Of a stretch of DNA of 35,451 bases, positions 4,030 through 34,937 are shown in pieces (within the stretch, counting starts at the first letter, position 1; each line of letters starts with the position of its first letter). This DNA comes from Bdellovibrio sp. Lineage in GTDB: Bacteria; UBA10199; 2-02-FULL-44-16; DYJF01. Under the pieces are notes generated by a model. That model worked only from the letters and a program-made list of their open reading frames with translations. It searched no databases and was not told the DNA's origin. The position numbers and the translations under genes were made by a program. Where the stretch lies: contig DYJF01000016.1 of the NCBI GenBank assembly GCA_020723205.1, positions 1 through 35,451 of the forward strand. The letters run 5' to 3'.

Positions 4030-4635
4030 TTACGCGTTGCGAAGGGGTTTTGTGCTTAAGCTTACGACGAGATCGAAATCATCCGGTTGAATATCCTTGC
4101 CGGGAATTACTTTAGAACGCATGATCTCTTTGCACTCCAAACACCGGTGGATGATTATGTAACTGTCTCGGCCGGAGATCACGACGCCGACAGGTTTCAT
4201 GAGTCCGCGGCAGGGATTTGCGCGATCTCCGACGTGGACGTCCACGTGTTTGGAATAGAGACAAAAGGGACAATGGTTTCTCGGAGTGCCGCATGTTGTG
4301 GGTGGAACGTCGGCGCTGCAATTGCCGCATACGAACCCTTCGTTAATGACCCTGAAGAGCTTTGTAGGAAGCTCTCTTGCCTTGCCCTTAAAGTTCTTTG
4401 CCAGTGAAAGTTTTTCTTTCTTTGTGAGCTTTTTTAATCTCGCCTCCTCCTTGAGGGCGGCGGAACGCGACTCGCACTCTTTTGAATAAATGAACTTTGC
4501 CGGGGATCTGCCCCGCGTATATTTTGCGCCCACGCCCCTGTTGTGTTCTTCAAGGCGTCTGCCCATGTCATTCGTTATCCCTGTATAGAGCGTCTTATCG
4601 GCGCAGCGTAAGATATAGACAAACCACGGTCTCAT
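4030..4635 (-). CDS. GIY-YIG nuclease domain fused to RNHCP domain, 201 aa
   Basis: The N-terminal part (about residues 1-85) is a UPF0213/YhbQ-like GIY-YIG domain: FVYILR, then LYTGITNDMGRRLEEHN, then the YTRGR-P and AALKEEARLKKL segments. GIY-YIG domains cut nucleic acids with a catalytic Arg and Glu. The C-terminal part (about 98-195) is an RNHCP domain, named after its motif, seen here as PRNHCPFC at residues 118-125. It also has CGNC and CLEC cysteine pairs that may bind zinc. The function of RNHCP is unknown. The ATG at 4635 is chosen because it starts exactly at the GIY-YIG domain; the open frame runs on to 4728 but would overlap the divergent gene. It lies head to head with the carbonic-anhydrase-like gene, 28 bases away. 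Confidence 0.87.
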   Translation of the reverse strand: MRPWFVYILRCADKTLYTGITNDMGRRLEEHNRGVGAKYTRGRSPAKFIYSKECESRSAALKEEARLKKLTKKEKLSLAKNFKGKARELPTKLFRVINEGFVCGNCSADVPPTTCGTPRNHCPFCLYSKHVDVHVGDRANPCRGLMKPVGVVISGRDSYIIIHRCLECKEIMRSKVIPGKDIQPDDFDLVVSLSTKPLRNA

Positions 4636-4663
4636 TGTTAAGGAGTATAGCAGGAGGTGCATT

Positions 4664-5035
4664 ATGAGCGAAGGGAAATTTGCGACGGCCATCAACTGCA
4701 TGGACGGCAGGACACAGTTGCCCGTCAACGAATGGATAAGGCGGGAATATCATGTCGACTATGTGGATACGATAACCGAACCGGGGCCTATAAAGATCCT
4801 CTCGGACAATAAGGACGTGGGATCCATAAAAAAGCGCGTATTGATATCTGTGGGCAAGCACGGTTCCAGCAACATAGCGATCGTTGGACATCACGATTGC
4901 GCGGGGAACCCCGTGGACAAGGCGACGCAGCTTGCCCATATAGCGGGTGCGATCAAGACGATTGTCTCATGGGACCTAAACGTGAACGTCGTTGGTCTTT
5001 GGGTGGACGAGAACTGGCGGGTAAATAAGGTTTGA
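4664..5035 (+). CDS. Small beta-carbonic-anhydrase-like protein, 123 aa
   Basis: The protein resembles the short carbonic-anhydrase-like proteins rather than full-length beta-carbonic anhydrases (usually about 200 aa). The zinc-site pattern is recognisable: C12-x-D14-R16 (NCMDGRTQLP) near the N-terminus, and GHHDCAGN with H77 and C79 further on. In the beta class, Cys-Asp-Arg and His-x2-Cys form the metal and proton-transfer site; here the spacing is HxC (HDC). Whether it hydrates CO2 is uncertain. AGGAGG lies 6 bases upstream of the ATG. It is divergent from the GIY-YIG/RNHCP gene. Confidence 0.75.
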   Translation: MSEGKFATAINCMDGRTQLPVNEWIRREYHVDYVDTITEPGPIKILSDNKDVGSIKKRVLISVGKHGSSNIAIVGHHDCAGNPVDKATQLAHIAGAIKTIVSWDLNVNVVGLWVDENWRVNKV

Positions 5036-5105
5036 TATAGTATCAGCTGATAGAAAAGCCGCCATTGTCAGGGCTGTAAAGAAAAGGAGGAAGAAGGTCC
5101 GTGAT

Positions 5106-5348
5106 ATGGCGATCTCCCACAAGGGCGGAAAGCGCCAGCTTTGTGGTTTTAATAAATGTATGGAATCACTGGAATTTCATCATATAATCAAAGGCAAGAA
5201 GGATTTTGGTATATCAGAAAAAGGTTATACTAGGTCCTGGGCGGCCATTAAGTCGGAACTGGACAAATGCATTCTGTTATGTGCAGATTGCCACCGCGAA
5301 TGGCATGCCGGTTTGATAAATGAGAGTTTTTTCGCTCTTTGTAAATGA
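5106..5348 (+). CDS. HNH endonuclease-like protein, possibly 5'-truncated or degenerate
   Basis: The C-terminal half carries an HNH fold signature: LEFHHI, then DKCILLCADCHREWHAG, with the paired Cys of a zinc site. In the many stand-alone relatives I know, the N-terminal zinc knuckle reads GGKCxxCGxxKC. Here it reads GGKRQLCGFNKC, so one cysteine is replaced by Arg. The open frame runs upstream to about 5025, and its translation (ADRKAAIVRAVKKRRKKVRD) resembles the family N-terminus, but that part contains no ATG, GTG or TTG. The true start may therefore be lost, or a rare codon may be used. The ATG at 5106 has AAGG 8 bases upstream. The gene ends 12 bases before the intron-containing tRNA-Asn. 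It may be a former homing nuclease or an unrelated HNH protein. Confidence 0.65.
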   Translation: MAISHKGGKRQLCGFNKCMESLEFHHIIKGKKDFGISEKGYTRSWAAIKSELDKCILLCADCHREWHAGLINESFFALCK

Positions 5349-5360
5349 TCGGTAAAATAT

Positions 5361-5697
5361 TCCGCAGTAGCTCAGTCGGTCAGAGCAGGTGACTGTCAAA
5401 AGGCAGCCCTCATTGGAAACGGTGAGGTGTAAAGCGGGTGAATTCAGGGGAACCTGTCCCGAGAATTTAAAAACTCGGCAAGGCAATCCTGAGCCAAGTT
5501 CCCTGATGTCAAAGGCAGGGAAAAGGTGCAGAGACTAGGGGGTGACGAAAGAATAATCCTCCATATAGCGCCCGCCACCTAAATTTCCCACGCGATAGAC
5601 GCCATGGGAAATATGGCGAAGAGATAGTCCGCGCCGGCCGGAAACGGTCGGGTATCGTGTAATCACCGGGTCGGGGGTTCGAATCCCTCCTGCGGAG
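5361..5697 (+). tRNA. tRNA-Asn(GTT) interrupted by a group I intron
   Basis: Exon 1 is 5361-5396 and exon 2 is 5660-5697, giving a 74-nt mature tRNA. The acceptor arms TCCGCAG (5361-5367) and CTGCGGA (5690-5696) pair perfectly, with G as discriminator base. The D arm is GCTC/GAGC. The anticodon stem is GGTGA (5388-5392) with TCACC (5663-5667). The T arm is GGGGG-TTCGAAT-CCCTC. Only after removal of 5397-5659 does the anticodon loop become the canonical seven bases CTGTTAA with anticodon GTT (G5395, T5396, T5660), the loop found in other bacterial tRNA-Asn. The unspliced sequence superficially suggests a GTC anticodon. CCA is not encoded. Confidence 0.9.
5397..5659 (+). ncRNA. Group I self-splicing intron in tRNA-Asn
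   Basis: This 263-nt intron lies between anticodon positions 35 and 36. P1 is exon CTGT plus intron C (5393-5397) paired with the guide GGCAG (5402-5406) across an AAAA loop, with the diagnostic U-G pair at the 5' splice site. The intron ends in G (5659), the expected terminal guanosine. P2 is CCTCATTG-GAAA-CGGTGAGG (5408-5427). P4 pairs TCAGG (5444-5448) with CCTGA (5488-5492) inside GGCAATCCTGAGCC. The R element is GTGCAGAGACTAG (5526-5538) and the S element is AAGAGATAGTCC (5619-5630); GACTA and TAGTC form P7. P9 is CCGGCCG-GAAA-CGGTCGG (5634-5651). GAAA loops on P2 and P9 and the overall size fit subgroup IC3, the type found in cyanobacterial tRNA-Leu and Azoarcus tRNA-Ile. It contains no ORF of its own. 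Confidence 0.92.
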
Positions 5698-5699
5698 CA

Positions 5700-5737
5700 A
5701 GAGAAGCCCAATCCCTTCCGGGGTTGGGCTTCTCTTT
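5700..5737 (+). terminator. Rho-independent terminator after tRNA-Asn
   Basis: Long arms AGAGAAGCCCAATCCC and GGGGTTGGGCTTCTCT enclose a TTCC loop and run into TTTATT. The hairpin follows directly after the tRNA 3' end. Confidence 0.88.
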
Positions 5738-5814
5738 ATTCGTTGGGAGAGGTCGATTTATTCTTAACAGGATCCCGTTTTCCCCTAAAAATCCCGCCGT
5801 GATTGAATATGCCG

Positions 5815-5844
5815 TTGACGGCCCACTTCAAATGTTGATAAACA
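5815..5844 (+). promoter_or_regulatory. Possible promoter of the 461-aa gene
   Basis: TTGACG at 5815-5820 is followed 18 bases later by TAAACA (5839-5844), a weak -10. It is placed just upstream of a strong ribosome-binding site and after the tRNA terminator, so a new promoter is needed in this gap. Confidence 0.35.
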
Positions 5845-5865
5845 CTGCGAAATCGAGGAGGCGAA

Positions 5866-7251
5866 ATGGTCCAAACCAACGTCGAGCAGGTCAGTTCGGA
5901 GAATTTCGGTTATCTCCCATGGGCCACACTGGACCCCCAAACGCTGGCGCCTCCCACGGTACCGCCCGTAAGATATTTTAATGAATTGTACGCCGTCTAT
6001 GATGATGTGTGCGGCGGCGCGACAGGACCTTCGGATCCCGCATTCATATCGACATATGCTAACTATGCCGGTTCATTCGCCAGCGGGGCGCTTAAGCGCA
6101 GGTTCTTTTACGGGATCAGCTTGGACAGAAGCGCATGGGCCGGCAGCGATTTCGGCAGGTGGCTTGACGGCGGGAAGATGTGTGCGGAAGGGTCACCGGG
6201 TTTCGAGAGCCATATGCCGCTTCGCACGGCGGTCAATGAGGGCATCTATGAGCGATTGAGGGGTGCTGCGAAGGCGATGCTGCCCGTCGATTTTTTTGGT
6301 TTTGAGCAGGGAAAGGAACGCCCCGTTTTTTATGCGAGCATTGCAAATATCGATTATACATCGCCCGGCAAAAGGAGAACGTTCGCGGGAACGTCAGGTT
6401 TTGCCGAAGTGTATCCTTCAGAATCCACCGGAGTTTACCGGAATGGCTCGGGCGATTTTCTCGTCATGGGCACGGAAGAGATCTCATGGACTCCGAAAGA
6501 CAGGATGGCCCATTTCGGGGGCCGCCTTGTGGTCGGAAAAGATGGATGGGTGGTCGGCAGCGAAGATGTATTCGTGGTAAGAAAGGGAACGGGCGCTGTA
6601 CATCCGTTATTTGAACATGCGGAAGAGGCCGTCAGATTCATAGACGGTCTTGAGGGAGACAGCGTGCCGAGAAGGAGTCGTCCGTTACCGGTCGGGGAGT
6701 TCCTCGAGGCGTTTGGATATAGGTATGTCGGCAACGGTTCGGCCGCCGCCGCATCCGGATATTTCAAGAATATCGCTCTGGATTATGAGGCGGCGTCGAG
6801 AAAATGGTTCACCATGAAGGGCGGAGCATATGGAGAGGTAGTGGTGGGGGAGATGCTGTACAATTCTTCGGAGCAGTATTTTCTTGCGGCGGCCGCGTAT
6901 CTTGCCAACGGCGAATACACTACCGCTATGAGCATGATCGAACAGATGAGATCGCAGATGCTGAACGCAGGCATCAAATATGATGATAAGATGGTAAAGG
7001 GACTGGAAGGGGCGATCGATCGCTTAATGGATCGTTCATACAGGAGCCGCTCGGGACCTCCCAAGAACGGCGGCGTGCCGGTCGGGGGTTTGATGGACAG
7101 CGGAGAGATGATTTCGTCTGCGGGTCCGTCGGCTGCAAACGTCAGCGGGATGAGCACTATCAGAACGCCAAACGCCGTCGCCGGTTTTTTAAATTCCCTT
7201 CGGCTTTATCTGTCCTGGCAGATACCCTCTGCACAGGCCAGAGTGTTCTAG
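5866..7251 (+). CDS. Unknown 461-aa protein with shared C-terminal VGGLMDSGE module
   Basis: I do not recognise a known family. The start is firm (GAGGAGG, 5 bases before the ATG). There is no N-terminal signal peptide. The central part (about residues 130-260) is rich in Gly, aromatic and beta-strand-like stretches. Residues about 335-390 form an amphipathic helical pair around EQYFLAAAAYLANGEYTTA, reminiscent of a TPR-like hairpin. The C-terminus has a Gly/Pro linker, then VGGLMDSGE at 406-414 followed by 47 residues, including a hydrophobic stretch (GFLNSLRLYLSWQIP) and a final Phe. This matches the ends of three minus-strand proteins at 24-35 kb (VSGLLPADE, VGGLLPSGE, VSALLPSGE), and NGGVPVGGL compares closely with NGGGVKVSGL. 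It is therefore likely a member of the same envelope or sorting system; that role is inference. Confidence 0.75.
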   Translation: MVQTNVEQVSSENFGYLPWATLDPQTLAPPTVPPVRYFNELYAVYDDVCGGATGPSDPAFISTYANYAGSFASGALKRRFFYGISLDRSAWAGSDFGRWLDGGKMCAEGSPGFESHMPLRTAVNEGIYERLRGAAKAMLPVDFFGFEQGKERPVFYASIANIDYTSPGKRRTFAGTSGFAEVYPSESTGVYRNGSGDFLVMGTEEISWTPKDRMAHFGGRLVVGKDGWVVGSEDVFVVRKGTGAVHPLFEHAEEAVRFIDGLEGDSVPRRSRPLPVGEFLEAFGYRYVGNGSAAAASGYFKNIALDYEAASRKWFTMKGGAYGEVVVGEMLYNSSEQYFLAAAAYLANGEYTTAMSMIEQMRSQMLNAGIKYDDKMVKGLEGAIDRLMDRSYRSRSGPPKNGGVPVGGLMDSGEMISSAGPSAANVSGMSTIRTPNAVAGFLNSLRLYLSWQIPSAQARVF

Positions 7252-24264: not shown

Positions 24265-26661
24265 TCAAAACGCGTTCGCAAAAGACAAAGGCAACATCCT
24301 GAACATTGTGGGCGGCCTGAAAACGACCGGTTGCGGACGTACCGCGCGCATCATCGTTGCACCTGTGACAACCGTGTTCCTGACGGGCGCCGTCGAACGC
24401 TCGCTGGACGAAGAGAAGGGCCCGGAACTCTCGTCAGCGGGCAAAAGCCCCGACACCTTAACGCCGCCGCCGTTGCCGTTTGTACCTCCGTTACCGTTCG
24501 GAGTGACAGGGTTCCTGTCATTGACCCCTATTCCGCCGTTTAAGCGTTGCCACAACTTCATATATAGAACGGAGACCTCGGTGTCGCCGTTGCCGTTGCC
24601 CATCTTGGCGTCGTGATCGAGAAAGGCGCGCTTGATGTTGTCGGGCAGGTTCTTCCAGTCGTCAACGAGCGCCTGCGCCCTTACGGTGAGGACCGTCGGA
24701 TAGGAAGCCAGTTCGTCGTTCTCCTGAACGAGCAACTTCATTACGAGCGAAAGATCGTAACCTTCGTACTCGATGGAGCTGTCTTCTGCATCGTATCTCC
24801 ACGGTTCGCGCGACGGCTCGATGCGGCCACGCTGCATCGTGCCCACGCGGAGAGACGTGCGCATCAGCTCGACGAACGACGTCGGTATGACTGCTCTCTG
24901 GTCCGCCTCCCCGAACTGCGCCTTGATTCCAGCGGGCAGCTCCCTCCACGCCTCGTACAGCACGGTTACTCGAGCGTTGATTATCGAGAAACTGTAGCGC
25001 TTCAGCTCCGGCCTGATCGTTACCAATCGTTCATAGACCACGGCGAGTTTTCCCGCATCGCGCAGGTTCGCATCCTTTTTGAAGCGTCTCATGAAAAGCA
25101 TAGGCAGCTCGCCGCCCAGGAGCGTGCGGCCGGGTTCCACAAAATTGGCGCGGCTTGTCTCGTCGAGTTCCAGCCATTTTTCTATGACCATTCGCGCCAG
25201 ATATTGCGAGGTGGGAACGCTTAGCCGCGTATCCTTCACGAGCTGTTCCGTCACGCTGTCGAGCCGCGGCCTGATGTGAAAGGAGATGCTCTGCGCAAGC
25301 CGCCTCATGTCAATCTTCTGCGGAAGCGCCGCTATGAACTTGGCCGGCAGGTCGCCGCCGTTCGGCGGTCTTGTCACGTCCACCAGCATCGCCTGCGCGG
25401 TTCTATCCGTCTTTCTCCAGATATCTATCGCCATCTCCGCGGCGTGCTGCGCGGTTTGCTCGCCCGTTCCGAAGAACTTCGCCGCGAGTATCTGGTTCTG
25501 CACGTTGTAAACCATGGGAACGACCCCGGCCGCTATCTCTTTTGATATCTCTTTGGCCCATTCCTTTGAGGAGGTGTGGACCTGCGCTATCACTTCTTCA
25601 CGGACGTATTTCATAGCGAACCACCTTATGAACTCGTTGGGGAGCGCGCCCCGCAGCGGCAGCGTGTCGTTCTTAAGATATTCGCCGCGAGCTTCCGGCG
25701 TTAAGGCGTGCCACCTGTTGATGGCAAGCTCGGAGAGATAGAGCTGCACGTATTCTTTTTGCACGTCGAACAATTGCCCGGCTTGCCCGTACGCGGCGTC
25801 GTCCTTCAAGCTTTCAAGCTGCGTCAGGACGACGGATCTAAGCGGCTTTCCGCGGATCGGGTCCGCATCCGGAACGACCGGTCTTAGGTCGGGACTTGTC
25901 TGACGCGGGTTCTCCGCTTTTGCCTCGCCGGCCCCGGCCGCTTGAGTTTGAACGGGCCCTTCGTCCTGTTTCGGCGTCCTCGGTTTCTTGTTCTTGTCCG
26001 TTATCCATTTAAGCGTGAAGATATATTTCAGCGTCTTTCCGAATTCATAGACCGGTCCGCTGAAGAAGTTTCGGACCTCTTTCAAGAACGCCTTCGATTC
26101 CCTGTTGAGGGCGCGCAGCGCCTTTGTGGCAAGGCCGATGTTCTCATTGGCGGCCTCCGCCTCCTTGCCGATCTCGCCTATTATCCTTATGAACCTCTTT
26201 ATGTATAGGATAAGTGTCGCGGCGCCCGTTGCGATGGCTCCGCCGCCCAACCAGCCGATCCCGCTTGAATCGCCGGGCGGCGGAGGAGGCGGAGTTCCCT
26301 GTCCCGTCTGAACGCCGCGGCAGAAGGTTGATATCTCTTCAGTATCGCCGGCGCTCATTCCCATGCAGCGCTCGCGCAAGGAGACGCCTTTGCTTTTTTC
26401 GTACTCGCTGACCGCCCGTTCGCATTCTTCGGAGAAAATCCTGCATTGCGGGGCGGCAGCCATGAACCGCTTTATGTCGCGCGCGAGCGTTGAACAGCCG
26501 GCGCTTTCGAACCAGCTGCAGAACTGGACGGCGCTCTGGAAGCTAAAATTTCGCGGGGTCTGCTTAAGCGTTTCGCAGAAACGGCTCTCCTCGCAGCCGG
26601 CATCGTTTACGGGACAGCATACGATGGAAGCAAGGGTTGAAACAAATTCTTGATCGCTCAT
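24265..26661 (-). CDS. Membrane-anchored repeat protein, 798 aa, with shared C-terminal module
   Basis: This is an unrecognised protein. The N-terminus (1-118) is cysteine-rich with about 11 Cys, many as CC, C-x-C-like pairs. A Pro-rich hinge and one transmembrane helix (about 135-156, ending LYIKRF) follow. Residues about 310-705 contain five copies of a helical motif at about 311-350, 410-445, 491-526, 567-600 and 663-703: Trp, a few residues, then R-x-x-F, then a loop with G-x-L-P and F (GALPNEFIRWF at 338-348 is the clearest). The same motif appears in the 2137-aa protein (GELPPAFIRWF). The Asn/Gly-rich tail ends with VSGLLPADE at 736-744 and 54 further residues. The start has GAGGAGGG upstream. 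It probably sits at the cell envelope; function is unknown. Confidence 0.8.
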   Translation of the reverse strand: MSDQEFVSTLASIVCCPVNDAGCEESRFCETLKQTPRNFSFQSAVQFCSWFESAGCSTLARDIKRFMAAAPQCRIFSEECERAVSEYEKSKGVSLRERCMGMSAGDTEEISTFCRGVQTGQGTPPPPPPGDSSGIGWLGGGAIATGAATLILYIKRFIRIIGEIGKEAEAANENIGLATKALRALNRESKAFLKEVRNFFSGPVYEFGKTLKYIFTLKWITDKNKKPRTPKQDEGPVQTQAAGAGEAKAENPRQTSPDLRPVVPDADPIRGKPLRSVVLTQLESLKDDAAYGQAGQLFDVQKEYVQLYLSELAINRWHALTPEARGEYLKNDTLPLRGALPNEFIRWFAMKYVREEVIAQVHTSSKEWAKEISKEIAAGVVPMVYNVQNQILAAKFFGTGEQTAQHAAEMAIDIWRKTDRTAQAMLVDVTRPPNGGDLPAKFIAALPQKIDMRRLAQSISFHIRPRLDSVTEQLVKDTRLSVPTSQYLARMVIEKWLELDETSRANFVEPGRTLLGGELPMLFMRRFKKDANLRDAGKLAVVYERLVTIRPELKRYSFSIINARVTVLYEAWRELPAGIKAQFGEADQRAVIPTSFVELMRTSLRVGTMQRGRIEPSREPWRYDAEDSSIEYEGYDLSLVMKLLVQENDELASYPTVLTVRAQALVDDWKNLPDNIKRAFLDHDAKMGNGNGDTEVSVLYMKLWQRLNGGIGVNDRNPVTPNGNGGTNGNGGGVKVSGLLPADESSGPFSSSSERSTAPVRNTVVTGATMMRAVRPQPVVFRPPTMFRMLPLSFANAF

Positions 26662-26713
26662 ATACCCTCCTCTCCATTCCGGTCCGGCCGCCCGCTAACG
26701 GCGGACTGCGGGC

Positions 26714-26742
26714 AAAAATAAGGCCCTCCGTGAAAGAGGGCC
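26714..26742 (-). terminator. Minus-strand terminator or attenuator before the 798-aa gene
   Basis: GGCCCTC and GAGGGCC arms (26722-26728 and 26736-26742) are followed on the minus strand by TTATTTTTG. It lies only about 52 bases upstream of the 798-aa start codon, so it would stop most transcripts entering that gene from upstream. Confidence 0.7.
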
Positions 26743-26905
26743 CCCAATGACCGCCATATGCGAACTTGCCACCGTAGTCAATTCCCAATCCATACGGCGC
26801 CTCCCATTTCTAAAACGAGGTCTGCGCCAGCAATCAGGATAGGCAGCAAAACGTTTTCAATTACTTGCAAATTGTCCCGCTTAGGACACGTGTAATTCAA
26901 GCTCT

Positions 26906-26932
26906 AAAAAATGGGTATGTACTTTCATACCC
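26906..26932 (-). terminator. Minus-strand terminator of the 2137-aa gene operon
   Basis: GGGTATG/CATACCC arms with a 6-base loop are followed on the minus strand by A and six T. It lies about 130 bases after the last gene of the operon (120-aa secreted protein). Confidence 0.75.
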
Positions 26933-27061
26933 TTTCACATAAAATATGCTGGGGATCGGGATCTGGCGCCGTGGTGATTTTAACCCGCCGTAATGTAAAG
27001 GTTATGGAAGCAGGTGTATACCGGCTTTTTGTCGAGGAAGGAGGCGGGCGCCGGCCGGTTT

Positions 27062-27424
27062 TTAGGGAGCGATCTTTCTCAAGGTGATGGTCAAAGGGGC
27101 GCCCTGCTTGATCTTTTTTGGCGACTCCACCGAGAAGCGGTCCTGTGCCAGACCTGCGACCTCTTCTATGACCGCCTCCGGCGCGCCGCGATATCTTCCC
27201 GAAAATTCGTAGAGTTCGCGGCTGGAAAGGGTGGTGGAAAGATCCGCTATGAGAGAGGAGCGTTTAAGATTCTTCTGTATGAGGTTGATGTCTGTGTAGT
27301 TTGTGGTTCCCACGACGGCGATCTTGAGGGGGAGTTCCTCTGCGCCGACAGACGCGTCCTGCGCGTGTAAGGCAACGGGCAGGATGACGGAAAGGGCCGC
27401 TATCAGAACATTAGGTATCTTCAT
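27062..27424 (-). CDS. Secreted unknown protein, 120 aa
   Basis: A Sec signal peptide (KIPNVLIAALSVILPVALHAQ) is followed by about 98 residues with an alpha/beta pattern: LKIAVVGTTNYTDINLIQKNL, then a helix around EAVIEEVAGLAQDRF, and a last strand LTITLRKI. It is likely periplasmic. I do not recognise the family. The start overlaps the stop of the Sm-like gene as ATGA, so it is translationally coupled as the last gene of the operon that starts with the 2137-aa gene. Confidence 0.75.
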   Translation of the reverse strand: MKIPNVLIAALSVILPVALHAQDASVGAEELPLKIAVVGTTNYTDINLIQKNLKRSSLIADLSTTLSSRELYEFSGRYRGAPEAVIEEVAGLAQDRFSVESPKKIKQGAPLTITLRKIAP

Positions 27425-27642
27425 TGTGTCACCAAACTGAAGGATTCGACCCGTTCTATCTCGATCATCGCCTGATCCTCGTTGCTCGCGATGATGATGG
27501 TTCCGTTCTCAACGTCAACGCGCTTGAGGGTTCCCGTGTACATGATGCCGAAAGCGATTATCTCGACGTTTTTTCCCTTCGCGTCGATGAGCGCGGCAAT
27601 GAGCGGATCGTCCTCTATTGTTTCGTCCTTCCGTTTCGCCAT
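27421..27642 (-). CDS. Small Sm/SH3-like barrel protein, 73 aa
   Basis: After a charged N-terminal stretch, residues about 22-73 show the five-strand pattern of an Sm- or SH3-like barrel: KNVEIIAFGIMYTGTLKRVD, NGTIIIASN, AMIEIERVESFSLV. Glycine at the strand-2 turn and the V-x-x-G-x-L order fit LSm-like folds, but the Hfq signatures are missing, so RNA binding is only a possibility. It sits between the 283-aa membrane protein (13 bases upstream) and the secreted protein (4-base overlap). Confidence 0.7.
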   Translation of the reverse strand: MAKRKDETIEDDPLIAALIDAKGKNVEIIAFGIMYTGTLKRVDVENGTIIIASNEDQAMIEIERVESFSLVTQ

Positions 27643-27655
27643 GGCATCTTCTAGC

Positions 27656-28507
27656 TCATCGAAAACGCAAGGTCAAGAAAGGCATGGCCGCCGTGCTGAA
27701 CGATGAGACCCTCGGCGGCAAGGGGAGGCCCAGCGCCGTGCGCGATCCTAAGACCATCGCCCGCAGCGGATGCCGCAGGAATGTCCGGCTTGCACCCGTC
27801 GGTCTTGCGTTCCCTTCGCCTGACGGAAGAAGACCGCCCACCGTAACGGTCGGCGGCGGATCGTCGTTATCGGTTGTGCCGCGCTTGTCAGCGACGCCCT
27901 TGTTCGCCTCCACGACCGGTTGCGGCGGAGGGGTCTCTTGGGGTTGTGCGGTCGCCTGTTTCTTTCTCCTGAAATAGATGAAACTTGCGACGTTGGCCGC
28001 TACAAGCACGCCGAGCGCCACCCACTTCCATACGCCGTCATCGGACGATCCGCCGTATGTGCTGTCGGCATGCAGAAGGCCCACGCCACCGGAGATGAGT
28101 CCGTAGAGCGGAGCGGGTTCGGTCTCCATTGAGCTGAAGACGTCCGGTATGGCCGGCTCGGATGGAGGCATGTTGCCGCCGTTCGGCAGCGGCTTATCCT
28201 TGCCGCCTGCGCCGCCTGAACCATCCGGACCGTCTGGCGGACCTTTCTTCCGCGACCTGAAGAACGGCAAAAGCATCAGCGCTACCATCGCGACGACGGC
28301 GGCGATCTCTTTCCAATCCCTTTCTTTGCGGCTTTCGTCTTTTCCCTTAAGCGCGGCCGCATCCGGACACCGGCAATACGTGTCCCGCGGTTCGCAGGGA
28401 CAGTCGTCCGCATCGTCAATGGCGGAGATCGTCGGTCCGTCATAGAGATAACCGCGCGGGGCCCCTACGATCTTGGCCGCTTGGCAATAACTATCTGACA
28501 CATCCAT
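27656..28507 (-). CDS. Two-helix membrane protein with shared C-terminal module, 283 aa
   Basis: This is an unrecognised protein. The N-terminus (1-50) has a Cys cluster (DDCPCEPRDTYCRCPD). Transmembrane helix 1 is about 67-84 and helix 2 about 160-179, each followed by basic residues (RSRKKG, FRRKKQ). Between them is a Gly/Pro-rich loop, PPDGPDGSGGAGG, that echoes GGPGDGPGGGTSGNG after the membrane helix of the 2137-aa protein. The end carries VGGLLPSGE at 223-231 followed by 52 residues ending in a hydrophobic, aromatic stretch (MPFLTLRFR). A GGAGG site precedes the ATG. It starts 16 bases after the 2137-aa gene. Confidence 0.78.
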   Translation of the reverse strand: MDVSDSYCQAAKIVGAPRGYLYDGPTISAIDDADDCPCEPRDTYCRCPDAAALKGKDESRKERDWKEIAAVVAMVALMLLPFFRSRKKGPPDGPDGSGGAGGKDKPLPNGGNMPPSEPAIPDVFSSMETEPAPLYGLISGGVGLLHADSTYGGSSDDGVWKWVALGVLVAANVASFIYFRRKKQATAQPQETPPPQPVVEANKGVADKRGTTDNDDPPPTVTVGGLLPSGEGNARPTGASRTFLRHPLRAMVLGSRTALGLPLPPRVSSFSTAAMPFLTLRFR

Positions 28508-28523
28508 TTTTAAACCTCCGGTT

Positions 28524-31500
28524 TTAATGCAATGACTGACAATTCATTCTCAATGGTTGAGTGAATCTTAAAAAACTTGCGACGAACGGCTGCATCGTGC
28601 GGGCCGGCATTGAAATTGCGCGGCCGGATATCGGGTTCCACGCATGAGGTGCGGCGCCGCCCTGTGAGATCGGCGCCTCGCCGGAGGGCAGAAGCGCACT
28701 TACGGCGCGGCCTACTTCGCTCCCGTTATGAGGCGCCGGCGCAGCCCCGCCACCCGCGCCCTGTCCGCCTTGGGCAGCGGGTGTTGCGCCGCCGCTGGGT
28801 GCATTGCCCTTCAAAAGCTCCGGTGCGATATGCCTTGAGAACCACCTTATGAATGCAGGTGGAAGTTCGCCGCGTCTTGCAATGAGTTCGGGTATCGCCT
28901 GCGAAACGAACCATGATTTCTGGACGGGTTCAAGAATCTCCCACGCGCTGATTGCTGCGGCGGCGAGATTTGAAATCGTGCCGCGCTGGCGATCAGGTAC
29001 AACGACACCCCCTGCGATCTGATCGATGACCGCCTTCTGTACTCCAAAGATGTTTGCAATCACTTTGTCCTGTTTCTGGAACCTGAACTTGGCCGCCTGT
29101 TGTTCGAATTCTTTGATATCAGTCATGCGATGTCTGTGCCTGAATATTTGTTCAATAAAATTAGCGAACCATATGGGTGGTCTGCTCTCGTCAAACGCCG
29201 CTTGTACCTCGTGCGCATATTCCTCTATCGCAAGATGAATGTAATAGTGCCTGGCATGACCGGATAATTTGAGAAAGTTCCGCCCGTCTTCAAAGAGCTG
29301 GTGTGATTTTGAACGAGCGGCATCGTTCATGATGCCGTTTACCAGCTCAAAGTCGGCGATGAGCCCGCCGACCTTATCGGCAAACTTTTTAATGCCACTT
29401 AGGACGAGTTCTTTTAATTTTTGGGCGTCACGAGTTGTTTGTGCATCCGCGCCGGCCAGGAGCCCTGTGACTTGCGCCTCGTCGGTAGCACGCTGGGTCG
29501 GCTTGATCTCCACTCCGTCGACAAATAGAGAACCGGTCGAGCGAGGTGCGGAAGGGGTGGCGTGTTCCAGAGGGCGGGGCGGGGTCGTTGTCGCTGCTGG
29601 ACTCTTTTCCGCCTCTCTGCGCTCGTATGCCAGATAACGTGCCAACTCTGAAAAGAGTTCGTGGTAATACATAAGTCCCGGATTTGATTTGGCGAGCTCG
29701 TTTTCCACTTGGACTCTTGTTCTGAAGCCAACATCATTGACATCACCTCCGGGCGCGCTGGCGGCATCCATGGTTGCAAGTGTGATCGGTTCGTCATGCC
29801 TTCTGAAATAAAAGGCGAGATTACCCCCATGCCTTATCGAAAGTATGAAATCGATGAACGCTTGCGGATAAGTGTCGCCCGGACGCGGCTGCCCGAATGC
29901 GGCGCGGAGATCATCGGACATTTTATCCCAAACGCTGACAAGTTCTTTTATTTTGAATTTGGCAAAGTCATGGGCAAACAGTTTTGTCAACACTGGCGGC
30001 ACATCCATCTTCTTAGAGACCGAGTTGTAGAGCGATTTTTTAACTCCATCCGATGCCAATCTTATTAGATAGCTGCGAATTTGAGAAACATAGCTGTATG
30101 ATCTCAAGGCCATGTCCATTTCTTCAGAAAATTCGGCGAGGTCCATTGTTTTTGCGGGCTTGGTGACGAGCGACCAGCGTGCAAGATTTTTCGCCTCTTG
30201 GGCGACGAACTCGTAGGTGGGAGCAAGTTCGTAGTCCTTTAGATGGGATAGTTTTATATTGTATCTCGACTGCACAAGACGCAAGTTCCAGAGAAAAAGA
30301 ATGGCCTGTGCTATGGAAATGAGATTATCCGAATCCGACATGCCGTCCAACTTGTCGGCTACAGGTTCGTCTCTCAATTTTGTTATCACGGAACGAATGA
30401 AGCGTGAATCCGGATTCAAATGGTCGAACACTTCCAGATCGATGACGTAATGGCCCTCTCCTACCGGAGGCGATTGAGTGGTGGCCGCAGAAACAGTAGC
30501 AGCAGGTGTTGCAGAGGCAGCTATGGGCGATGTGGCAGATGGTGTGGTCTGCCGTGCTTGCGTCCGATAGAAATACTTTTCCGCCAAGCGCGCCACTTTG
30601 GCGTAGTCGGTCTCATTCGGAACAGTTGAGAGAAAATCGCTGAACCAACGAGGAAGCGGGCTAGGCAGATGCGATCCTCCGAATTGATCGACAATTTCCT
30701 CAGGCATGGACACCCAGACAGACTTGAGAAATACTGTCCCTTGTAAGCGCGGCGCGGCAAAAGCCTCCGATTGCGCCGCGGGCGTGGCAGGAGCAACGGG
30801 CGCGGATGGTACTTGCGGAGCCGCAGGTCTGGCAGACGTCGGTAAACTTGACGAGACCAGCGCCGGGCCGAAGCCGGGAACCTGTACGCGTACGGACTCC
30901 GGCAAAGCACTGGGAGCAACCGGTGCGGAAGGCGCGGCTGCGGGCGACACGGGGGCGGGTGCCGATTGCGTAGCGACTGATGATGCCTCTGTGGCCAAAC
31001 GCCGGCGTATGAGTGCGTGCAGAACACTTGGGTATTGCGCAAGGCCCGGATGCTCCTTCAGCAATTGGCCCTCAAATCTCTTCATATCCTCTGCAATCGC
31101 GGGGGAATAATAGTAATCAACATTTTCCGGTATCCCCGCTTTGAAATAGTGGCCTATATCACCACCCTGTTCGGCCAAGGTCAGCAGGAATTCGATGAAG
31201 AGCGAAGGATAAATGCGGCCGCGCATAGGACCGAATGCATCCTGGAGCTGTTTGGGCATTCTCTCCCAAGTCTCGGCCAATTCTTTGAGCTTCAATGGGG
31301 CGAATTCCGTCACGAACAGATCCATATACATGAGCGGTATTTCGATGAGACCGCTGTCTTTGCGGAAAAAAAGTTCCCGGAACGCTAGAACAACAAGGGC
31401 GTCGAGGTAATCGTTTTCCTGTTTGGTGATCCCGGCCAAAGAAGGATCGACTCCGCGGCCGGACATGAAACCGACTCTGTTTTGAACACTGCTCCAATCT

Positions 31501-34500
31501 AAGTTCTGCTCGTAAAGTTTCTCGTAATTAAAACCGCCCCTTCTGTATTGGCTTCGAAGAGAATTGTCCTTCGTTAGTGAGGCAGCTTGTTGAAAAATGA
31601 AATCACGGTTGTAGAGAGGAGTTGTTCCCCCGCTCATCAACCATCTGAATTCTATGATGACTGCCATTTCGTGTATGAAGTTTTCATACACGTCTTTTTC
31701 CCCCCGCAGAACTTCCCGCACATACTGCAATGAAAAATGTTGCATTGAAATGCTTTGGAGGTTTTCGAACACGCGAGTGCCTTGAATTTGATACGGTTCT
31801 TGGGCCGCAGGCGCAGCGGGAGCGGAAGGTGCGGCCTGAGTAGACGGGCGCAGAGGGGGAAACTCTGCTTCAAGCACGTCTTCATCTAACCCCATCGCGT
31901 CTGCGATATCGCGCACGATCGCCCTTTCCACCGCTCTTTCCATAGATACTGACGGCTCAGCAGGCGCAGCTACGGCGGCTGGCGCAGGTGGTGCGGCGGT
32001 TTTTGCCGGTTGGGCGGCTATCTTCTCGGCCAAGTGCCACGTGAGAGTTCTCAAGACCAACGGATAATTTCCAAGACCCGGGTAGTCAGAAAGCAACACC
32101 TTCCCGGCCTGCCGACGTTCTTCGGTCGTCCAATCCACGTCCTCCTGCCTGCCGGTTATATAATAGATGCTTATCTCATCGCCTTTCTTAGCGACGGCCA
32201 GCATGAAATCCAGGAAGAGCTGGGGATATGGTTGACCGCCCGTGGGCTTGCCGAACGCCTGATGCAGTCCCTTCGGCATATTCTCCCACACATGAGAGAG
32301 CTCCTTCAATTTCAGGCCGGCATATTCTCTTGCGAACAGATCCAGGTAGATATCTGAAAGTCCGAAATATCCGACGTCTTCGGAAGAGAAATATTTCTTG
32401 AACGCCAGGACCGCAAGCTCCTGCAGGTAGCCGATCTCCTGCGCCGAGGCGGGAGTGCCGATGGAACCAAATTTATTTATCACGGAAAAATAGTAACCCT
32501 GGACCAACTTCTTGAGATATTCATCATCGTGATGCCCGACCCTGTTCTCGGCGCCGCGGTAGGCGGCAAGCGAGGTTTTATTTTCCAAAAGCTTCCAGGC
32601 CTGTTCCTTTATGAATTCAGTCGTGGGTGAGTGATCCATTTCTCCCTTCAAAAGCCACCTGAACTCTATGATGTATGCCATCGCCGTCAGGTCCGCTTCA
32701 TCAGCGCCCGGCTCTGCGCGGAGATGAGCTCTTATGTTCGTCATCACATAGCGCTCGTTCTGTGTAACGGCGTAGAGCTTGCCGATAGTGCGAGAGCTCA
32801 AGACCCAGTATTGCGGTGGCATCTGTTGGGCCGGGGCCCCACTTCTGGTGGCTGCTACGCGCGTTGCAGGACGGGCAGGCGAGGTCCTTGCCGGCGCGCG
32901 GGGTGCAACGGCCGGAGCGGTTGCCTTCGGCTGCGGGTTGCGTTCGGCCGCCTCTTGGCGCTGCCATGAGCGTCTGTGCTCGATCCGTTCAAAGACATGT
33001 CCGTAATGGAGAAGGCCGGGAAATCTTGCGGCGAGCTCTTCGTGGACCTGTCTTGAAATGGTCCCGCTGTCGTCCCGATCCAGACCGTAGTGAGCTTTGT
33101 ACGGTCTTTCGTTCCTTTCCAGCGCGTAGCTGATGTCCAGACCGCCGCTTGCCGCGAGCATGAACTCGATGAAAAGGGCGGGATATCCTTCGCCCGGCGC
33201 TCTTCTTCCGAATGCTTCGCGGAGTTCGTCAGGCATATCGCCCCAGATACGTGCAACCTCATTAACCTTCCACAGGGCAAACCGCTTGACGAATAATTGT
33301 ATGAAGATGTCATCCAGATTGAAGCGCCCAGTTTTCTTATCGAAAAAAGAGCTTTCGAAAGCCGACACTGCAATTTCTGAAACGTAATCGGCCATTTGCC
33401 TGTCGGGTTCGTAAAAAAGCATGTAATCATTGCGAACTCGACGACGCAGGCCCTCGGCAACTTTGCTTATGGGCTCGCTCTGTGGAAACAGATGAATCAG
33501 CTCTATCGCTTGCTCTTCGATGAACCGGCGCGTCGGCGTGCGATCAGTATGGTTCATTTGCCTCAACGAAGAGTTCGGCCGAGCCCTCATCAGTGCCAGA
33601 TTCCACAGGAAGAGAACGGCTTGAGCGATCGTCTTTGCATAGCCATCGTCTGTTCTGCTGCGAAGTTCACCCATTGTGAGAAGCTGGTTGAGCAGTGGAT
33701 CGTTGTCGAAAATTATGGGGAGTTCAAAGGCCGCCAGATTCATTATATAACTTGGCACGTCGGGCGAAGCAGTCCCTGCTTGCGCCTCAAGTCGCAAGTC
33801 GGAGAAGGCCTCAAGGGGCTGCGGGGCGGTTGACGCTTGCGGCCGGCTCATTGCTTCGGCCGGAGCGATTGCGGGAGCGGTCACAGGTGCCTGGGGCGCC
33901 GAATTTGGGACCTCCGCCTTGAGTGCGACGGGAACGAGGAGAAGATCACCTCCCATCCCCGCCCTGTGATTTACGTATTCAATGAACGATTCGGGGATCG
34001 GGCCGCCGTGATAATTGAATCTGGCCCTTTTCACTTTGTGATCTGTGTCCTTCCAGACCTGTATGATGTCGGCGGCGCGTCCGTCGATTTCGATAAAAGA
34101 ACGCTTTCCGGCGTAACTCTCACCGTTTTTTGAGACCCATGCGAAGACGCGCGCGCGGGTCAAGAGCCGTTCGATCTGCTGGCGCGAGAAGGTCTCTCTG
34201 TTCGAATCCGGCTCGATCCTCAAAATGAGGTTCACCTCCGTCGATTCGATGACTTTCTTCGGAAGCCCGCCCGTCATCGTCAGGTGGTCCCTTCGGGATT
34301 CGGAAAGCATCGACCAGTCATCGATTCCCCACTTCGCAAAGTATGAAAGAAGTACCTCTTGATCCTCTTTCTTTTTGACGCCCAGTTTCGCAAGTTGTTC
34401 CGAGTATGCGGCCTTGTATTGTTCGATGACCGCTTCAAGATTTGGCTCCTTCGGCGCAGGGGGAGGGGGAGTTGCAGGCGCCTCGTCTGCACTTGTCGTC

Positions 34501-34937
34501 GCGTCCTTCCCGCTTTTTCCCCTGCCGAACCAGTTGCTGAAAATTCCAAGCGGGCCTACGGAGACGAAAGGCATCGCAACCGTCTCTCTTAGCGCGCCCC
34601 ACGGAGAGCCGGTGTTCGGGCGGCCGTGATCATCCGGTTTTTCGGTGCCGTTTCCGCTGGTGCCGCCTCCGGGTCCGTCTCCCGGACCGCCTTTTCTTTT
34701 GATGATGGCCAGAACGAGCACGAGAATCGCGAGTGGAAAAGTGATGAGCGGACCTATCCATCTATATTCGCCCGGATCCTCTTCTTTTTTTTCAGGCGCT
34801 GCACCATTCGTCCGGACGGCATCGGCTCGTGCTCCGCGCTGATCCAAGACGGGAAATTCGCCCGTCTCCGAAACTGCGGCGAGATAATAAGGCGGTTGCT
34901 GTGATGATGCAGGACCTGCGACACCGGGGGCGCTCAT
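28524..34937 (-). CDS. Giant membrane-anchored repeat protein, 2137 aa
   Basis: This is an unrecognised protein and the largest gene in the window. One transmembrane helix lies at about 60-80 (WIGPLITFPLAILVLVLAII) followed by KRK and a Gly-rich hinge. Four divergent helical domains of about 265-280 residues lie at about 398-660, 709-972, 1048-1314 and 1497-1774, separated by Pro/Ala-rich linkers. Each contains W-x-x-M-P/S-x-x-L-x-x-AFG, then YPxxFIxF, and ends with an NPGL/HPGL...YP-like block. Domains 1 and 4 share QA(V/I)LFLWNL; 2 and 3 share IIEFRWL. Shorter versions of the motif lie at about 287-324, 1405-1438 and 1990-2034. It ends with SALLPSGE (2080-2087) and 50 residues. An AGGGAG site and a promoter at 34991-35019 precede it. 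The role may be structural at the envelope; this is inference. Confidence 0.85.
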   Translation of the reverse strand: MSAPGVAGPASSQQPPYYLAAVSETGEFPVLDQRGARADAVRTNGAAPEKKEEDPGEYRWIGPLITFPLAILVLVLAIIKRKGGPGDGPGGGTSGNGTEKPDDHGRPNTGSPWGALRETVAMPFVSVGPLGIFSNWFGRGKSGKDATTSADEAPATPPPPAPKEPNLEAVIEQYKAAYSEQLAKLGVKKKEDQEVLLSYFAKWGIDDWSMLSESRRDHLTMTGGLPKKVIESTEVNLILRIEPDSNRETFSRQQIERLLTRARVFAWVSKNGESYAGKRSFIEIDGRAADIIQVWKDTDHKVKRARFNYHGGPIPESFIEYVNHRAGMGGDLLLVPVALKAEVPNSAPQAPVTAPAIAPAEAMSRPQASTAPQPLEAFSDLRLEAQAGTASPDVPSYIMNLAAFELPIIFDNDPLLNQLLTMGELRSRTDDGYAKTIAQAVLFLWNLALMRARPNSSLRQMNHTDRTPTRRFIEEQAIELIHLFPQSEPISKVAEGLRRRVRNDYMLFYEPDRQMADYVSEIAVSAFESSFFDKKTGRFNLDDIFIQLFVKRFALWKVNEVARIWGDMPDELREAFGRRAPGEGYPALFIEFMLAASGGLDISYALERNERPYKAHYGLDRDDSGTISRQVHEELAARFPGLLHYGHVFERIEHRRSWQRQEAAERNPQPKATAPAVAPRAPARTSPARPATRVAATRSGAPAQQMPPQYWVLSSRTIGKLYAVTQNERYVMTNIRAHLRAEPGADEADLTAMAYIIEFRWLLKGEMDHSPTTEFIKEQAWKLLENKTSLAAYRGAENRVGHHDDEYLKKLVQGYYFSVINKFGSIGTPASAQEIGYLQELAVLAFKKYFSSEDVGYFGLSDIYLDLFAREYAGLKLKELSHVWENMPKGLHQAFGKPTGGQPYPQLFLDFMLAVAKKGDEISIYYITGRQEDVDWTTEERRQAGKVLLSDYPGLGNYPLVLRTLTWHLAEKIAAQPAKTAAPPAPAAVAAPAEPSVSMERAVERAIVRDIADAMGLDEDVLEAEFPPLRPSTQAAPSAPAAPAAQEPYQIQGTRVFENLQSISMQHFSLQYVREVLRGEKDVYENFIHEMAVIIEFRWLMSGGTTPLYNRDFIFQQAASLTKDNSLRSQYRRGGFNYEKLYEQNLDWSSVQNRVGFMSGRGVDPSLAGITKQENDYLDALVVLAFRELFFRKDSGLIEIPLMYMDLFVTEFAPLKLKELAETWERMPKQLQDAFGPMRGRIYPSLFIEFLLTLAEQGGDIGHYFKAGIPENVDYYYSPAIAEDMKRFEGQLLKEHPGLAQYPSVLHALIRRRLATEASSVATQSAPAPVSPAAAPSAPVAPSALPESVRVQVPGFGPALVSSSLPTSARPAAPQVPSAPVAPATPAAQSEAFAAPRLQGTVFLKSVWVSMPEEIVDQFGGSHLPSPLPRWFSDFLSTVPNETDYAKVARLAEKYFYRTQARQTTPSATSPIAASATPAATVSAATTQSPPVGEGHYVIDLEVFDHLNPDSRFIRSVITKLRDEPVADKLDGMSDSDNLISIAQAILFLWNLRLVQSRYNIKLSHLKDYELAPTYEFVAQEAKNLARWSLVTKPAKTMDLAEFSEEMDMALRSYSYVSQIRSYLIRLASDGVKKSLYNSVSKKMDVPPVLTKLFAHDFAKFKIKELVSVWDKMSDDLRAAFGQPRPGDTYPQAFIDFILSIRHGGNLAFYFRRHDEPITLATMDAASAPGGDVNDVGFRTRVQVENELAKSNPGLMYYHELFSELARYLAYERREAEKSPAATTTPPRPLEHATPSAPRSTGSLFVDGVEIKPTQRATDEAQVTGLLAGADAQTTRDAQKLKELVLSGIKKFADKVGGLIADFELVNGIMNDAARSKSHQLFEDGRNFLKLSGHARHYYIHLAIEEYAHEVQAAFDESRPPIWFANFIEQIFRHRHRMTDIKEFEQQAAKFRFQKQDKVIANIFGVQKAVIDQIAGGVVVPDRQRGTISNLAAAAISAWEILEPVQKSWFVSQAIPELIARRGELPPAFIRWFSRHIAPELLKGNAPSGGATPAAQGGQGAGGGAAPAPHNGSEVGRAVSALLPSGEAPISQGGAAPHAWNPISGRAISMPARTMQPFVASFLRFTQPLRMNCQSLH

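Follow-up and report, generated by a model that had tools for sequence, protein, structure and literature searches.

The window, by which we mean the whole 35,451-nt stretch of Bdellovibrio sp. DNA analysed here (contig DYJF01000016.1), carries on its forward strand a tRNA-Asn gene whose anticodon is split by a group I intron that is very probably catalytic. The reading we favour, to which we assign a probability of about 0.9, is that the intron would be spliced out to give tRNA-Asn(GUU), that it would owe its spread to an HNH endonuclease, and that the copy described here would still be competent for splicing and no longer mobile by means of its neighbour.

The split tRNA-Asn gene and its intron

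The 5′ exon (5361–5396, + strand) supplies tRNA positions 1–35 and ends in U, and the 3′ exon (5660–5697, + strand) supplies positions 36–73 with the discriminator G73, CCA not being encoded; an intrinsic terminator-like hairpin of 17 pairs (5699–5736, + strand) lies immediately past the tRNA. Joined directly from the raw sequence, the two exons give a 74-nt tRNA with a complete cloverleaf and a U1–A72 pair, in which the acceptor stem (TCCGCAG/CTGCGGA) and the anticodon stem (GGTGA/TCACC) are perfect and the anticodon loop reads CTGTTAA, with anticodon GUU. The sequence-only reading had proposed that the two halves fold once 5397–5659 is removed, and the joined molecule bears this out. The excised insert is 263 nt long, ends in G, and sits between tRNA positions 35 and 36.

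The insert (5397–5659, + strand, terminal G5659) has relatives in other genomes and is recognised by the Rfam group I intron model RF00028, the covariance check that had been suggested for it: the match runs from 5387 to 5651 over model positions 1–253 of 253 and scores 74.3 bits (E = 3e-17; curated threshold 50 bits), and no second RF00028 match was found in its own genome. The intron sequence alone folds better than its shuffles (z = −3.5). An alignment of 38 introns, each with 8 nt of both exons, yielded a consensus fold of 46 pairs with both-side changes in 36; with P7 added by hand, the resulting 51-pair structure is paired in 95.0% of cells across the 38 introns, as against 71.7% with partners shuffled and at most 44% in slid controls. 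Both-side changes occur in 37 of the 51 pairs and the covariation score is 0.611 against 0.173 shuffled; kinship among the sequences raises counts of this kind, yet the excess over the shuffles is large and every helix holds.

All helices lie on the + strand. P1 (5393–5397 with 5402–5406) sets U5396 opposite G5403 at the 5′ splice site, a U·G pair that is kept in 38/38 introns, and the terminal G is present in 93/93 complete loci listed. P2 (5410–5425) and P9 (5635–5650), closed by GAAA loops at 5416–5419 and 5641–5644, each show both-side changes in 6/6 pairs, and P3 (5434–5438 with 5571–5575) in 4/5. P4 (5445–5449/5487–5491) and P5 (5453–5454/5482–5483), P6 (5493–5495/5525–5527) and P6a (5499–5504/5517–5522), as well as P8 (5576–5579 with 5615–5618), are drawn from the shared alignment of introns. 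Across the 38 introns P3, P4, P6 and P8 covary; P7, the guanosine-binding helix formed by GACTA (5533–5537) with TAGTC (5625–5629), is nearly invariant, with 98.4% of cells paired. The P10 pairing is weak in the window copy (loop AAAA), and many relatives among the loci compared by eye carry UUA beside the guide sequence, opposite the UAA of the 3′ exon. The GAAA loops on P2 and P9 are, we presume, reminiscent of Azoarcus-type tRNA introns. Every element picked out by the sequence-only reading (P1 with its U–G pair, the terminal G, GAAA-capped P2 and P9, P4, and P7) was recovered in this fold common to 38 introns. The conservation of this anatomy is the basis of the splicing route that we propose: the precursor tRNA-Asn would fold with its anticodon loop split by the intron, a guanosine bound at P7 would attack the bond after U5396 and so release the 5′ exon, which would in turn attack the bond after G5659 and join the halves into the 74-nt tRNA-Asn(GUU).

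Distribution and descent

In the open-access literature searched, no description of a group I intron in tRNA-Asn was found, in keeping with the sequence-only reading, in which this tRNA is not known as a described host; the arrangement is nevertheless not rare, and tRNA-Asn may provisionally be regarded as a new group I intron host. A search pattern that combined the 5′ half of tRNA-Asn with the P1 guide was run over 84,980 species genomes and matched at least 118 stretches. At least 82 of these contain a complete split tRNA-Asn gene, in which the acceptor stem has 7 bp, the anticodon stem 5 or 4 bp, and the discriminator is G73; some of them repeat class genomes. These complete named loci span at least 10 phyla, among which single records may be misbinned. 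Hosts among the matches listed include Omnitrophota, Elusimicrobiota, Nitrospirota, Betaproteobacteria, several delta-type lineages and Clostridia, together with many Patescibacteria (Saccharibacteria among them), Cyanobacteria, Bacteroidetes, Bipolaricaulota and Neomarinimicrobiota. Six archaeal matches (L073, L101, L111, L121, L140 and L167), from which no group I-split tRNA-Asn was recovered, were dropped.

The same pattern was matched on viral contigs (46 matched, 37 with a complete split tRNA-Asn), and the viral introns that were tested and passed the Rfam threshold score 59.5–92.8 bits. Several of these viral genes stand in tRNA arrays on contigs of up to 470 kb, and at one locus (L205) phage-type genes flank the array; the window locus itself, searched as DNA in annotated phages, gave no match. 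From these contigs we infer that phages carry the intron.

In the trees, from which a cyanobacterial intron (L120) was left out on account of poor alignment, the introns of tRNA-Asn, tRNA-Lys and tRNA-Leu separate with 2 label changes. Among the Asn introns, in a quick tree from a short alignment, phylum labels cluster imperfectly (25 changes versus 71.7 when shuffled), and the class's own Asn introns fall in several places, of which the starred branches force at least two. This we read as inheritance mainly within lineages, together with some transfers. As judged from sequence, the intron lineage is widespread and fixed at the single tRNA-Asn site 35/36.

The adjacent HNH endonuclease gene

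Upstream of the tRNA, with 12 nt between its stop codon and the tRNA start, lies an HNH endonuclease gene (5106–5348, + strand; 80 aa from the ATG at 5106) that matches Pfam HNH_2 (2.9e-5) and a PHROG HNH endonuclease (7e-21). The sequence-only reading makes no mention of this gene. Homology to relatives runs in frame upstream of 5106, where there is no ATG, GTG or TTG start. Measured against the CxxC...HH...CxxCH pattern, the protein is above the Pfam HNH_2 cut-off, and Arg replaces the near-invariant Cys10, the first Cys of CxxC, which all 14 other proteins in the alignment retain; the copy of one relative (L037) is frameshifted. The window HNH is probably a decaying homing endonuclease, and decay of such genes after fixation is expected (PMC3984707). 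With its neighbour apparently decayed in this way, the intron here is probably splicing-competent and no longer mobile through it. Further upstream in the window, a single ORF (4030–4728, − strand) joins a GIY-YIG domain to an RNHCP domain, and a related ORF lies upstream of the HNH gene and tRNA-Asn in L037.

By tblastn, all 20 of the 20 bacterial loci with HNH matches are intron-bearing tRNA-Asn loci, as against 0/14 intronless and 0/30 other-tRNA loci. As it was their tRNA-Asn that brought most of these loci into the comparison, a profile search across the whole class gives a fairer test. In it, 5/5 genomes with close HNH homologs have them at an intron-bearing tRNA-Asn; G010 and G036 have weaker paralogs at other places. 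The gene occupies the inside of the intron (L034, L039, L040 and L132), the upstream side on the same strand (the window, L037, L088, L142, L164 and L165) or on the opposite strand (L118 and L122), or the downstream side (L076, L095, L100, L139, L144 and L168). It also adjoins, from outside, the intron-bearing tRNA-Asn of L205, and lies 11 nt upstream of one intron-bearing viral tRNA-Asn. These gene neighbourhoods fit a homing endonuclease aimed at tRNA-Asn, with an intron that rides on it and has engulfed it in some genomes; most likely, the HNH enzyme encoded beside the tRNA or within the intron would cut an intronless tRNA-Asn, and repair would copy the intron in.

It is rather unlikely, although worth weighing, that the HNH gene instead encodes an ordinary free-standing endonuclease, unconnected with the intron, whose own spread would be served by targeting tRNA-Asn or tRNA arrays. 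Cronobacter phage CR3 and Klebsiella phage RCIP0023, in which the gene lies 18 nt and 69 nt, respectively, downstream of an intronless tRNA-Asn, favour such an element. The HNH family also extends beyond a role at the intron: paralogs lie elsewhere in G010 and G036, and in known phages the gene also occurs away from tRNA genes (six HNH neighbourhoods in annotated phages: two beside intronless tRNA-Asn, two in tRNA arrays and two in neither). Independence from the intron is, however, at odds with the residence of the gene within it in four bacterial genomes and with the finding that close homologs in the class stand at intron-bearing copies only, and a shared target would itself permit collaborative homing. 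Retaining HNH-driven homing as the preferred reading, we give even odds to the broader proposal of an undescribed mobile intron lineage at tRNA-Asn 35/36, present in at least 10 phyla and in phage arrays, that would home through an HNH endonuclease encoded mostly outside the intron, and that phages may carry from phylum to phylum.

At a Nitrospira locus (L065), an HNH gene within an apparent 1858-nt intron was rejected, an orphan 5′ half having been wrongly joined to a complete gene further on. In this region (5026–6955, reverse complement) the 5′ half of a tRNA-Asn stands alone, with an HNH gene after it, 1.6 kb ahead of the complete split tRNA-Asn, an arrangement that looks like a partial duplication and is perhaps a repair footprint.

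Other introns and reading frames were seen in the class and the window. In four class relatives (L032, L036, L058 and L059) group I introns interrupt tRNA-Lys(CTT) at 33/34, and directly upstream of the tRNA lies a conserved ORF of about 220 aa, with an HTH-like start and the ending ..ILGWIEG, that matched no Pfam family above cut-off and is possibly another endonuclease. An intron-bearing tRNA-Leu(TAA) (L056) has a LAGLIDADG_3 endonuclease ORF directly upstream (Pfam 5.6e-13), which, going by gene order, represents the same layout of an endonuclease outside and next door, with another endonuclease family. A same-order genome (L053, G007) has a group I intron-like match apparently in the T-loop region of tmRNA (3′ flank CCCTCCGCCTCCACCA), a site at which introns are already known (PMC11915505). 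Further class introns lie in apparent initiator tRNA genes (L052 and L060) and apparent 23S rRNA genes (L038, L049, L051 and L054). The window also contains very large ORFs of 798 and 2137 aa (24265–34937, − strand), with Ala/Pro-rich linkers and repeated segments.

Other tRNA-Asn copies in the genome and the class

The assembly to which the window belongs (1.75 Mb, 83% complete) holds 33 other tRNAs; 30 of these were read out and include no Asn, and the other three are 82–89 nt long, a length that suits a tRNA with an extended variable arm and not tRNA-Asn. A second, intact tRNA-Asn, which the sequence-only reading had named as a point to check, was not found: a search of this 83% complete assembly with the spliced tRNA returned the two exons only. 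With no other copy found, splicing is probably needed for translation, and the spliced tRNA-Asn would be charged with asparagine and used there.

A complete tRNA-Asn split by the intron is present in 13 of 46 class genomes (this one included), and full-length tRNA-Asn is absent from these 13, the best partial matches checked being Lys, Phe, Thr, Met and Arg. An intact tRNA-Asn with CTGTTAA was found by pattern in 14 class genomes, same-order G001 and G005 among them, and additionally in G034 and G040. Within about 1.5 kb, the genes flanking intronless G001 and G005 are not syntenic with those of the window; these two are empty sites of the gene only, and the flank-matched pair is supplied by G042. 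This genome holds both alleles: an intact tRNA-Asn lies on C9, and C131 carries the 3′ part of an intron-bearing one. Compared from the 3′ junction onward and into the flank downstream, the two agree in 66 of 68 bases. Most simply, G042 would represent a population with and without the intron, as mixed strains in one bin.

That the gene is dead, with a degraded intron, a tRNA pseudogene and the functional tRNA-Asn in the unassembled 17%, is very improbable. The assembly is indeed just 83% complete and the adjoining HNH copy looks decayed, but all core helices are intact, both exons are perfect, and near-complete relatives as a rule have a single intron-bearing copy.

Identity of the host tRNA

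In the window copy the splice junction can slide by 2 nt, and for this reason ARAGORN, when introns are allowed, calls it tRNA-Thr(UGU); several relatives' copies are called tRNA-Asp. Without introns, ARAGORN yields only a tRNA-Arg from the window and misses the split tRNA-Asn. It had been predicted that a scanner would miss the gene or miscall it as Asp: the miss was confirmed, and the Asp call was obtained for several relatives and not for the window copy. The intron-aware scan that had been suggested finds the gene, but under the name of Thr. All 93 complete loci listed have the junction CTGT/TAA and G73, and the intronless class relatives all read CTGTTAA. The tRNA body matches the intronless tRNA-Asn of same-order L179 and L180 at 62–63 of 74 bases, and its own genome's tRNA-Thr at 53 of 77 columns. 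A tRNA-Thr(UGU) host with splice sites 2 nt upstream, after U5394 and G5657, is reported by ARAGORN with introns and satisfies the rule of a U before and a G at the end of the intron as well, but it has hardly any likelihood, because U5394 would face A5405 rather than G (the Asn-register U·G is kept in 38/38), 61 of the 93 homologous introns listed permit the Asn register alone, and G73, U1–A72 and the tRNA body fit intronless tRNA-Asn, not the genome's own Thr. On these comparisons tRNA-Asn, not tRNA-Thr, is the right register; the intron class, the host, the 35/36 site and the splice sites first proposed are upheld by the Rfam model, by covariation, by the intronless same-order relatives, by the empty site in G042 and by the lack of a second tRNA-Asn in the 83% complete assembly.

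Significance and comparison with known systems

Many uncultivated bacteria would depend on a ribozyme for a tRNA that appears to be essential and is mostly present as a single copy. As standard tRNA callers miss or misname the split tRNA-Asn, tRNA counts, genome-quality scores and codon analyses of such genomes can be wrong; with tRNAscan-SE 2.0, the missing fMet or Ile2 of 36 genomes was traced to group I introns, and tRNA introns have been noted, with isotypes unnamed, in circularised bacterial genomes (PMC8172020). Alleles with and without the intron, HNH genes inside, upstream and downstream of it, and phage copies make intron gain, intron loss and endonuclease capture testable at one site.

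Bacterial tRNA group I introns are known in tRNA-Leu(UAA), tRNA-Ile(CAU), tRNA-Arg(CCU) and initiator tRNA. Like them, the present intron is a small (about 200–300 nt) anticodon-loop ribozyme that forms P1 with the 5′ exon and whose exons are held by the anticodon stem; unlike them, it has tRNA-Asn(GUU) as host and 35/36 as site, and the tree separates it from the tRNA-Lys and tRNA-Leu introns of the class. The tmRNA introns of bacteria, described from 21 phyla as mostly endonuclease-free, at a T-loop site and with rare LAGLIDADG genes inside (PMC11915505), resemble it in their structural-RNA host gene and in their boundary rules, whereas host and site differ and an endonuclease beside the tmRNA intron is not known to be described there. 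The HNH proteins of this kind share their domain and Cys/His pattern with the phrog_2255, phrog_3106 and PF01844 endonucleases; the subset studied differs in being tied to tRNA-Asn, and the window copy is without one conserved Cys. A parallel in layout is collaborative or trans homing, as of F-CphI with the psbA intron in cyanophages and of T4 mobE (PMC3984707), in which an endonuclease gene likewise lies outside the intron and near the intron-bearing gene. That mode has been described for protein-coding phage genes, in which all phage introns known at the time of that review lay (PMC3984707), whereas here, judging from gene position, its target would be a gene for a tRNA, both in the genomes of cells and in the tRNA arrays of phages.
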